In this document: positions 3,049-16,467 of the stretch, piece after piece | Layout of the letters: each line of letters opens with the position of its first letter | Numbering within the stretch: position 1 is the first letter of the stretch | Virus record (IMG/VR): IMGVR_UViG_3300033144_002868 | Location: 1-21,546 of that record | Source: a virus | Reading direction: 5' to 3' (one strand) | DNA length: 21,546 nucleotides | Translations under genes and position numbers: made by a program | Notes under the pieces: model-generated | Database searches by the model: none | Told to the model about the DNA's origin: nothing | Seen by the model: only the letters and a program-made list of their open reading frames with translations

Positions 3049-3996
3049 ATGGGATTATCACAACAAGTAGGGGGTTATGTTTATCTGGAAGACACTACAC
3101 AAAAGGTTCAATACAATAGGGACACGCTGGTATTACTCGAACCGTTCCCAAAAATTGATATATGTATGGTAGGTGCTGGAGGACCAGGTGGTGATGGATC
3201 AACGCTTGGAGATTGTGCAGGAGGAGGCGGCGGAGGCGGTCAGGTTATCATCTCAGGTAATACATATATAGGCCCTGGTTCTTATGACGTGGTAGTTGGA
3301 AACGGAAGCCACCAGATATTTTTCGATCAGCCCCCATATAACGGATTAATAGGGAACTCATCAAGCATTGGTACTCTTATTGCATATGGTGGTGGTGAAG
3401 GAGGATTCGCTGGTTCAGGTGTATCAGATCAAATGGCAGGAAAACCTGGTGGAAATGGTGGTGGAGCAACATATGATTTTATGGGATTTACAATAATTCC
3501 AATACCTGGTGGATCACCCGATTATGGATATAATGGAAATCACGGAGGGTCAGTATCAGCCCCATTTGGTGGAGATGCGTGGGATGGTTCAGGAGCAAAT
3601 GGTGCAGGAGCGGGAGCTGGTGATGGAGCAACAACAGGAAAAGTATGTCCTTATAGTGGTATTGAATTTGGTATAGGAGGACTAGGTAACACAGTTGGTC
3701 AAGAAGATGGTACCAATGGAGTTATAAACACAGGCCAAGGAGGCCAAGGTGGTGGGTACGATAATGGAGTAGCATATAATGGTGGAACTGGTGGATCAGG
3801 AATAGTTGGGTTCAGATATATTCTTTCCGAAACTAGAGATTATGTAATATCAGGAGGAACAATTACTCATGATAACCCTTACGTAATACACACGTTTACC
3901 TCAAATGGAACCATAACTGTTACGCCCAGAAACCCCGTTGTTTCAGCAACACCATATCCAACATCGACACCTACACCAACACCTAGTATGCCTTAA
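3049..3996 (+). CDS. Glycine-rich tail adhesin
   Basis: A 315-aa protein. After about 50 ordinary residues it becomes extremely glycine-rich (runs such as CAGGGGGGG and GGQGG) through about residue 255. It then ends in a conserved closing segment (GGTITHDNPYVIHTFTSNG) and a Pro-Thr tail (PTSTPTPTP). Glycine-rich phage adhesins, for example T-even gp38, fold as packed polyglycine helices with variable receptor-binding loops, and a similar role is inferred here. The same architecture and closing motif recur in the protein at 6414, so the two are probably paralogues or independently recruited members of one family. The Pro-Thr tail resembles the linker in the upstream hub. ATG is placed one base after the previous stop; no Shine-Dalgarno sequence is present. 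Confidence 0.72.
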   Translation: MGLSQQVGGYVYLEDTTQKVQYNRDTLVLLEPFPKIDICMVGAGGPGGDGSTLGDCAGGGGGGGQVIISGNTYIGPGSYDVVVGNGSHQIFFDQPPYNGLIGNSSSIGTLIAYGGGEGGFAGSGVSDQMAGKPGGNGGGATYDFMGFTIIPIPGGSPDYGYNGNHGGSVSAPFGGDAWDGSGANGAGAGAGDGATTGKVCPYSGIEFGIGGLGNTVGQEDGTNGVINTGQGGQGGGYDNGVAYNGGTGGSGIVGFRYILSETRDYVISGGTITHDNPYVIHTFTSNGTITVTPRNPVVSATPYPTSTPTPTPSMP

Positions 3997-8039: not shown

Positions 8040-8055
8040 GGACCCCGCGCTCGGT

Positions 8056-8096
8056 GTCCAAAGTACGGAATCAAACTCGTCCAAAGTACGGAATCA
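8056..8096. repeat. 18-bp direct repeat pair
   Basis: The 18-mer GTCCAAAGTACGGAATCA occurs at 8056-8073 and again at 8079-8096, a 23-bp period of just over two helical turns. Iterated sites of this kind next to non-coding DNA are typical of binding sites for an initiator or small terminase, but only two copies are present and the binding protein is unknown. Confidence 0.75.
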
Positions 8097-8106
8097 TAAT
8101 TCATAT

Positions 8107-8308
8107 ACCATCGACCCCCGCCTTTTAGCAAAAAGGACCCGATCCAGGACTGTGATTACCTCCCCTAGCGGGTCGGTCTCAATAGTCCTTATAATAAGTC
8201 TCAAGTCGTTATTGATTAAGGGTCCCAGACCGACCGCCAGGTCGGCAATAAATAAGGGCATGGGGGGCGCGAAAATAAATAGGGGGTAGCGCTGTAACCA
8301 TCGACCCC
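8107..8308. repeat. 12-bp direct repeat pair flanking the fold core
   Basis: ACCATCGACCCC occurs at 8107-8118 and 8297-8308. After each copy, about 10 to 20 bases downstream, an A run is followed by a GG(G)-CCC element. The two copies bracket the main helices of tract A, suggesting a duplicated module or matching ends of one folded domain. Confidence 0.65.
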
Positions 8309-8394
8309 AATAGAAAAACGGGTCCCTTACACCAAAGGCAACCCGTTTATCAAACTGTGAATAATATAATATGTATATATAAATATAAACAATA

Positions 8395-8426
8395 TTTTGG
8401 ACTTATCAAAATCTTTTGTATATTTA
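8395..8426 (+). promoter_or_regulatory. Bacteroidota-type promoter for the + strand HNH module
   Basis: TTTTG at 8395-8399, a 19-bp spacer, then TATATTTA at 8419-8426 within GTATATTTAT. This matches the known Bacteroidota -33/-7 layout (TTTG, about 19 bp, TAnnTTTG) with one mismatch. The ATG at 8431 is only four bases past the -7 element, so the transcript would be leaderless or nearly so. Confidence 0.6.
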
Positions 8427-9976: not shown

Positions 9977-9983
9977 ATGTTTT

Positions 9984-9991
9984 CAAATATA
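9984..9991 (-). promoter_or_regulatory. Minus-strand promoter -7 element TATATTTG
   Basis: On the - strand this reads TATATTTG, an exact match to the Bacteroidota -7 consensus TAnnTTTG. A TTTTG lies 24 bp upstream, slightly farther than the usual 19-21 bp. The ATG of the 86-aa gene follows after seven bases, so the transcript would have almost no leader. Confidence 0.5.
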
Positions 9992-10023
9992 ACAATAAAT
10001 ATCGAGACCGCCTATCAAAAGAT

Positions 10024-10039
10024 TATGTTTTACAACATA
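10024..10039. promoter_or_regulatory. Operator-like inverted repeat between divergent promoters
   Basis: TATGTT-ttac-AACATA is a perfect six-base inverted repeat with a four-base centre, placed in A+T-rich DNA between the - strand promoter (9984-9991) and the + strand promoter (10102-10109). The size and symmetry suit a dimeric regulator binding site. No regulator is identified, and chance occurrence in A+T-rich DNA is possible. Confidence 0.35.
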
Positions 10040-10100
10040 TAACGATAAAAATATTACACAAAATAAAGTTACTGTTATTTCGTCTTTTGCTATATCTTAT

Positions 10101-10110
10101 GTATATTTAT
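10101..10110 (+). promoter_or_regulatory. GTATATTTAT motif, candidate promoter of RNA tract B
   Basis: Identical 10-mer to 6211-6220 and 8418-8427. It contains TATATTTA as a -7-like element, with TTTCG ending 19 bp upstream as an imperfect -33. The first strong RNA helix begins seven bases downstream at 10117, which is where a transcript initiated here would start. Confidence 0.5.
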
Positions 10111-10111
10111 C

Positions 10112-10576
10112 AATGTGAGTAATCGAGGATCCCGGATATAGGGCGTTTGCGGGGTTACTCAAAAGAACACCTTACCGCGGGGAAGTAGTACGACAGGGTA
10201 CGCCACAGAACACAACGAGTCACGGGGCGAAGTACAGGCGGATAAGCGTCAATTGAGGGCCAAGGGTATCCATCTTATCTGGTTTACCTATTTACGAAAG
10301 TAAGTGTTCTCCCTGTAATCTGCAAAAGAATACAGGAAGAACTCTCTATTAACTCAAGTAAGTCTTTAATATAGTAAGGACCGTTATTAAGTCCCGTTCC
10401 CGACAGGGAAAACGGGACACTTAAATGGACCAATTGGTGACTCGACCCTTCCGAAAGGGAAAGGAGTCGAAGTCAACAATAATTAACAGTATACTTATAT
10501 AAAGGGAATGTTTGGGGTTTTATTTTTATTTAAGCCCATTTTTTACTAGTTTTTCCTCAAACTTCCCTTTTTTTTT
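10112..10576 (+). ncRNA. Candidate large structured RNA B / leader of the packaging operon
   Basis: About 465 bases without a gene and richer in G+C than the flanks. Helices visible: 10117-10122 with 10155-10160; 10164-10174 with 10301-10310 (ten pairs, one bulged C) enclosing a domain; inside it 10198-10204 with 10226-10235, and 10239-10246 with 10274-10281 (eight pairs, one G-U); 10312-10317 with 10331-10336; 10391-10398 with 10411-10418 around CCC-gaca-GGG; palindrome ACCAATTGGT at 10429-10438; 10439-10443 with 10464-10468 around CCCTT/AAGGG; and a terminator-like stem at 10501-10570. A promoter-like site precedes it and a gene ATG follows two bases after its T run. It does not show the signatures of tmRNA, RNase P RNA or a group I intron. 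It could act as a trans RNA, a packaging RNA, or a cis antitermination leader. Confidence 0.6.
10501..10576 (+). terminator. Terminator-like stem and T run before the packaging operon
   Basis: AAAGGGAA (10501-10508), a bulged T and GTTTG (10510-10514) pair with CAAAC (10558-10562) and TTCCCTTT (10563-10570), thirteen pairs in all. Nine T (10568-10576) follow directly. The loop is long (about 43 bases) but contains a GGGG/CCC helix. ATG of the next gene is at 10579, so read-through must occur for the operon to be expressed from the upstream promoter. Confidence 0.5.
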
Positions 10577-10578
10577 AA

Positions 10579-10869
10579 ATGAGCAATCCGATTAATATAG
10601 GCGACATTGGTATTACCAAAGAATATCTATCCTTTAATGAAATCATTAAAAATAGGATCAAACAGAGTATTTTAGATAATGCCTTCTCAAATATATTCAC
10701 TGAAACGTCAATACATCGGAAAAAGGTAATATTGAACAAGATATTGGATAATTCAATCAAACATTTAGAAGATTCAGAGGAATATGAACAATGCTCTATT
10801 CTTAAAGAAATTAAGGATTATTTAATACAGTATACTCCTCAAAACGTTAATAAACAGAAAAATAAGTAA
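10579..10869 (+). CDS. Hypothetical helical protein (96 aa), first gene of packaging operon
   Basis: A 96-aa, lysine-rich and largely helical protein (FNEIIKNRIKQSILDNAFSNIF, KKVILNKILDNSIKHLEDSEEYEQ, ILKEIKDYLIQYT). I do not recognise it. In HK97-type phages the small terminase subunit is encoded shortly before the large one. This gene is the first of three small genes ahead of the large terminase, so it or its neighbour is a candidate for that role. No clear helix-turn-helix is visible, which weakens the idea. ATG follows the T run of the terminator-like stem by two bases. The next gene starts three bases after its stop. Confidence 0.6.
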   Translation: MSNPINIGDIGITKEYLSFNEIIKNRIKQSILDNAFSNIFTETSIHRKKVILNKILDNSIKHLEDSEEYEQCSILKEIKDYLIQYTPQNVNKQKNK

Positions 10870-16382: not shown

Positions 16383-16402
16383 GTTATACTACGATTCAGT
16401 AC

Positions 16403-16441
16403 AATGGTTCAGGAGGTTTTTTACAACACCTCCTGGCCATT
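16403..16441 (+). terminator. Hairpin after the major capsid gene
   Basis: AATGG-tt-CAGGAGG pairs with CCTCCTG-g-CCATT around a 12-base loop, twelve base pairs in total. No T run follows, so it is a weak terminator, attenuator or 3'-end stabiliser rather than a standard intrinsic terminator. It lies between the capsid gene and the connector gene at 16468, and may set the drop in transcript level after the capsid. Confidence 0.65.
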
Positions 16442-16467
16442 ATATTATAAGATAAAAAAGAATAATT

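Follow-up and report, generated by a model that had tools for sequence, protein, structure and literature searches.

We sought to determine what occupies the 465 bases that separate a promoter-like site from the packaging genes in a very small phage genome, a region which a preliminary description had read as one structured RNA running from promoter to terminator. The window analyzed here is the whole of virus contig IMGVR_UViG_3300033144_002868 (21,546 bases), and since it carries a 114-base end repeat, the genome is a circle of ~21.4 kb. The host group of this small circular virus is Bacteroidota bacteria, and relatives of its terminase (phrog_9 family) in bacterial genomes, at ~47-55% identity, are mostly from Bacteroidales. 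The nearest virus contigs, L009 and L011, encode major capsid proteins 81-82% identical to that of the window, with a sister-phage terminase at 70% identity. All assignable genes belong to tail, head, packaging or HNH functions, and no replication, integrase, repressor or lysis gene was recognizable among the ORFs scanned across the whole window. The features on which our analysis rests are as follows.

10078-10109, + strand: P1, promoter-like site, with the -7-like element TATATTTA at 10102-10109 and a predicted start at ~10114
10112-10345, + strand: G+C-rich, purine-rich non-coding 5' tract, with fold at shuffle level except for the hairpin at 10306-10342
10306-10342, + strand: 14-pair hairpin (GUUCU.CCUGUA / UACAGG.AGAAC plus three inner pairs), pairing probability 0.98-0.99 in the full-length ensemble
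10378-10431, + strand: hairpin A, core GUCCCGUUCCC / GGG..AACGGGAC, pairing probability up to 0.95
10433-10480, + strand: hairpin B, GACUCGACCCUUCC / GGGAAAGGAGUCGAAGUC, without a T-run behind it
10490-10497, + strand: P2, second promoter-like -7 element, TATACTTA, 6 bases 5' of the leader stem
10501-10570, + strand: conserved hairpin in the packaging-operon leader, made of a 13-pair core (10504-10567) and a long U-rich loop
10568-10576, + strand: nine-T run, terminator-like, abutting the stem and lying just before the ATG at 10579
10579-10869, + strand: 96-aa ORF at the head of the packaging operon, with weak DUF1477 similarity under the Pfam cut-off, followed in order by small ORFs, terminase, portal, protease and capsid

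A G+C-rich non-coding island with a promoter-like edge

The non-coding span at this locus measures ~465-600 nt, and its non-coding nature holds up: there is no ORF of at least 50 aa within 10112-10576, the longest being a minus-strand frame of 49 aa that begins at TTG. A protein hidden in the tract was rejected, as no start-to-stop ORF reaches 50 aa. The higher G+C content noted earlier is likewise real and forms a sharp island, at 48% over 10112-10345 and 46% over 10112-10480, compared with flanks of 23% (9977-10111) and 24% (10481-10578). Purines are in excess on the + strand of the tract, which by itself also fits the coding-strand habits of the genome. The tract holds no iteron-like repeat array, just three weak two-copy repeats of 11-21 nt, and in a search for antisense targets in the phage genome the longest complement was 11 nt, the same as for shuffled sequence.

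The promoter of Bacteroidota sigma-A has been described as TTTG with a -7 element TAHHTTTG, placed 4-5 nt before the start (PMC6847099). A promoter-like site does stand just 5' of the tract, as had been proposed: TATATTTA at 10102-10109 agrees with TAHHTTTG at 7 of 8 positions (the final base being A, not G), with a -33-like TTTC at 10078-10081 and also a TTTG at 10086-10089. Closely similar promoter-like sites occur elsewhere in this phage and in L009; upstream of the ORF at 8416 we found the P1-shared string ATCTTNTGTATATTTAT and the near-identical ATCTTTTGTATATTTAT. P2 agrees with the same -7 consensus at 6 of 8 positions (TATACTTA), and a P2-type element occupies the same position in L009 (3821) and L011 (2360). 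For both P1 and P2 the start is only a predicted one.

The window holds a second G+C-rich non-coding tract, at 8040-8345 (51% G+C vs. 16% just downstream), for which no Rfam match was found. It is conserved in L009 at 671-935, where the core, including GCCAGG..GG.AATAAATAAG..GGGGGGCGCGAAAATAAA, is 73-82% identical, and as a candidate for a conserved RNA it may surpass 10112-10576. Direct repeats flank it in both phages, at 681-718 and 894-931 in L009 (38 bases around ACCATTGGTTACCCTACTTTAGCA) and at 8107-8118 and 8297-8308 in the window (ACCATCGACCCC), with either copy a potential pairing partner of the same G-rich strand. Between this tract and a gene for a small membrane-type protein lies a perfect 18-base direct repeat, GTCCAAAGTACGGAATCA, with a spacing of 23 (8056-8096).

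Fold signal and homologue searches

Folded as a whole, the tract is more stable than 100 dinucleotide shuffles (z -4.3), with the minus strand nearly equal (z -3.9). When the whole genome was scanned in windows of 160 bases, this signal proved uneven: 10321-10480 reached z -5.6, the second strongest value on the + strand, with hairpin A inside this most structured window of the tract, whereas the windows at 10081 and 10161 gave only 0.3 and 0.0. The 5' 243 nt folded alone did no better than shuffles (z -1.15). The fold signal of the tract is thus due to the hairpins at 10378-10480 together with the end hairpin, and the helices with good support in the ensemble are those at 10306-10342, 10378-10431, 10433-10480 and 10501-10570. 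Genome-wide, folding is strongest (z -5.8) elsewhere, in a long hairpin at 16401-16445 directly 3' of the major capsid gene (AATGG..CAGGAGGT/ACCTCCTG.CCATT, without a T-run), which is possibly an mRNA processing or stabilizing element.

The preliminary description had counted at least eight helices by eye. We compared perfect helices of 7, 8, 9, 10 and more pairs in 10112-10480 with those in shuffled sequence, and their number proved to be that expected by chance (15 vs. 12.9 expected at 8 bp or more, 2 vs. 2.0 at 10 bp or more); because the counts equal those in shuffled sequence, helices drawn by eye are no evidence of structure. The ten-pair long-range stem can indeed be drawn, at 10165-10175 with 10300-10309 and one bulge, but its probability in the ensemble is ~0 and at most ~0.05 in the 5' part alone; the stem is outcompeted by a GAAA-tetraloop hairpin (10290-10305) and the 14-pair hairpin. 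Similarly, the first helix (10117-10124 with 10153-10160) has a probability of 0.002 in the full-length ensemble and of ~0.17 when only the 5' part is folded.

Searches for homologues of 10112-10480 found none in the sources covered. No Rfam family matched among 4227, which include group I and II introns, tmRNA, RNase P, 6S RNA and riboswitches, either at gathering thresholds or at E up to 10, where the lone match was mir-360 (E 2), a chance microRNA hit. Blastn against phage records gave only short AT-rich upstream matches (to Lak phages and one Vibrio phage), plasmids gave nothing, and 166 kin loci with 50 whole kin virus records gave chance-level matches only. Across ~790 Bacteroidota genomes we obtained only matches of 18-46 bp at E ~0.002-0.1, in the number expected by chance. 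Two exact 16-mer scans of IMG/VR returned four hits each, which we regard as chance since none extends into the remaining RNA. Finally, a covariance model of hairpins A and B run against 88 sources matched only itself, and with filters off it found nothing convincing in the corresponding L009 tract. Judged by these comparisons, 10112-10480 is an orphan among the Rfam families, phage records, plasmids, kin loci and Bacteroidota genomes searched.

These results bear on whether the tract is simply recently acquired or decayed sequence without function, its helices arising by chance in G+C-richer foreign DNA. Helix numbers at chance level, the orphan sequence and a slot whose content varies among relatives all fit such an origin. 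We nonetheless consider it improbable, given that hairpins A and B rank second among the + strand fold signals of the genome and that a promoter-like site of the phage's own type coincides with the 5' border of the tract.

The end hairpin and the same slot in related phages

The 13-pair stem (GGGAA.GUUUGGGG / CCUCAAACUUCCC) followed by nine T at 10568-10576 is present as first described. Orthologous hairpins occur in L009 at 3836-3912 (13 pairs) and in L011 at 2373-2427 (12 pairs), and all three phages show a TATA(C/T)TTA-like box, 6-7 bases, the hairpin and a T-run, in that order. In L011 the gene directly 3' of the hairpin is a homologue of the 10579-10869 ORF (36% identity). The three hairpins have fold z-scores of -3.1, -4.0 and -2.3. 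Their arms differ in sequence, with both sides altered in 7 of 8 inner pairs across the three sequences, so that the changes are compensatory: 24 of 24 cells pair (100%), against 68% in shuffles, and none of 500 shuffles reaches this value. For this comparison of three sequences the unaltered arms were matched by hand, and a MAFFT alignment, which put the hairpin arms out of register, was left out; versions with slid arms pair at only 27-52%.

At 10501-10576, then, a stem kept by paired changes stands directly before a U-run, the arrangement expected of an attenuator. Its loop is ~38-40 nt long (~38 nt outside optional inner pairs), in excess of the 3-8 nt of a short terminator loop, and the hairpin is absent from the list produced by a terminator scan with loops of 3-8 nt. 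Because typical terminators have far shorter loops, the element may alternatively be a stabilizing or protein-binding 5' stem; an attenuator heading the packaging operon is the simplest reading. Among kin, a promoter box followed by a hairpin was found at 7 of 3048 boxes, equal to the rate at random positions, and we are therefore dealing with one orthologous element rather than a general type of leader. A layout resembling the packaging leader also occurs in L011 at 808-930, before another gene: a promoter-like box is followed by a 12-pair hairpin whose long loop is structured, then by a T-run and an ATG.

Upstream of this shared element the relatives differ from the window. The end of an HNH gene in L011, at 2335, lies ~38 bases 5' of the hairpin start at 2373, too close for a long RNA to fit between them. 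The corresponding slot of L009 contains more than 700 bases of AT-rich DNA with no similarity to 10112-10480, of which the stretch at 3330-3830 also beats shuffles (z -4.0). It does so through an 18-pair stem and a second strong hairpin of its own at 3585-3725, non-homologous to the tract of the window.

A packaging RNA, suggested earlier for this tract, thus finds no support: neither of the two closest relatives has the long RNA in this slot, an absence that speaks against an RNA essential for packaging. The same comparison bears on a role of the tract as DNA, in which a cos/pac site, a replication origin or sites for the terminase small subunit would lie here and the inverted repeats would be protein sites. 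Packaging-start sites of cos/pac phages are often found directly upstream of packaging genes, and the tract lies directly 5' of such genes and folds about equally on both strands (z -4.3 and -3.9); the L009 tract has strong inverted repeats too. We hold this role to be rather doubtful, however, since the tract has no iteron-like array and its purine excess lies on one strand, and since the insert is absent from sisters whose packaging has to work with a terminase of 70% identity.

A single trans-acting phage RNA of ~465 nt, with an elaborate fold and belonging to a new ROOL/GOLLD-like class (e.g., a scaffold or cage), would account for the length, the G+C island, the promoter-like start and the terminator-like end. 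Several hairpins with probabilities of at least 0.9 and a 9-pair closing stem (10113-10121 with 10492-10500, probability 0.84) are consistent with it. We regard it as unlikely all the same: the helix count is at chance and the 5' half at shuffle level, no homologue was found and hence no covariation, there are no tRNA genes nearby, and the end hairpin is common to phages that have none of the remainder.

A proposed variable insert upstream of an older leader, compared with known systems

Our preferred reading, to which we assign a probability of about 0.5, is that a lineage-specific non-coding transcription unit occupies a variable slot and is followed by an older attenuator or terminator leader of the packaging operon. 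The tract is really non-coding, but its structure had been over-read and its ending misassigned. What stands of the proposed discrete transcript is a plausible non-coding transcription unit from ~10114 to 10578, which the promoter-like site, the G+C island and the terminator-like end suggest; what falls is its unity, the end hairpin being a separate conserved leader. Because relatives carry that hairpin without this RNA, the span from promoter to terminator is no conserved unit.

In the two-part model, 10490-10578 would be the old shared element, comprising the box, a 12-13-pair hairpin with a long loop, the T-run and the first ATG, and the position of the P2 box would put a predicted start at the foot of the leader stem. 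The hairpin would most likely act as an intrinsic terminator or attenuator, limiting transcription into the packaging genes until read-through. Immediately 5' of it, 10112-10480 would be a lineage-specific non-coding insert in the variable slot, with a promoter-like site of its own. As a transcript of the insert lacks its own terminator, there would be two outcomes: a stop at the shared hairpin, giving ~465 nt, or read-through, in which case the insert RNA would form a long 5' leader of the packaging mRNA. A ~465-nt transcript ending at the shared hairpin is therefore no proof of a dedicated RNA gene. Our analysis shows the anatomy, the conserved and covarying end hairpin, and relatives that lack the insert; we infer transcription, termination and any role of the insert. 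For the insert, we consider a leader or accessory-RNA role tied to the amount of transcription passing the hairpin most likely. Against the two-part model stands the P1 box, in which the consensus G of the -7 element is missing. It is also quite unlikely, in our estimate, that 10112-10480 represents a new class of large structured RNA, whether acting in cis (on read-through at the attenuator) or in trans.

If the hairpin gates the packaging operon, it would offer a simple and testable view of late-gene timing in very small Bacteroidota phages. As the insert illustrates, the slot before the hairpin takes up unrelated non-coding DNA and is a place to seek accessory phage RNAs. The locus also carries a caution, in that a G+C island between a promoter and a terminator can mimic one RNA gene where sister phages reveal two independent parts.

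Among known systems, the earlier likeness to ROOL and GOLLD extends to a non-coding tract within a phage genome. ROOL is often found near tRNA islands in phages and prophages, and many GOLLD members exceed 800 nt (PMC12286853). Here, in contrast, cmscan gave no covariance-model match to ROOL or to the conserved 3' region of GOLLD (at gathering thresholds and at E up to 10), ARAGORN found no tRNA genes in the window, the 5'-half fold is at chance, and the tract, at ~465 nt, falls below those many longer GOLLD members. The packaging RNA (pRNA) of phi29 is located next to packaging genes, and our tract likewise adjoins such genes; it differs in having no sequence or Rfam match, in being accompanied by a phrog_9-family terminase and in having sisters without the RNA. 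Phage morons are accessory units of transcription, each bringing its own promoter and terminator. The insert resembles them in being an additional unit that has a promoter-like site of its own and lies where sister phages differ in content, although it is non-coding and seems to rely on the leader downstream for its terminator.

The attenuators with intrinsic terminators in phage and bacterial operon leaders share with 10490-10578 and its orthologues the succession of box, short leader, stem and U-tract, with a G+C-containing stem directly 5' of the first gene of the operon. The present element differs from them in its unusually long loop and in a T-run that abuts the ATG, and no sensor, leader peptide or antiterminator was identified at 10490-10578. 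For the unlikely reading of 10112-10480 as a new RNA class acting in cis as a leader, the model would be the put RNA of HK022, which acts in cis on RNA polymerase.
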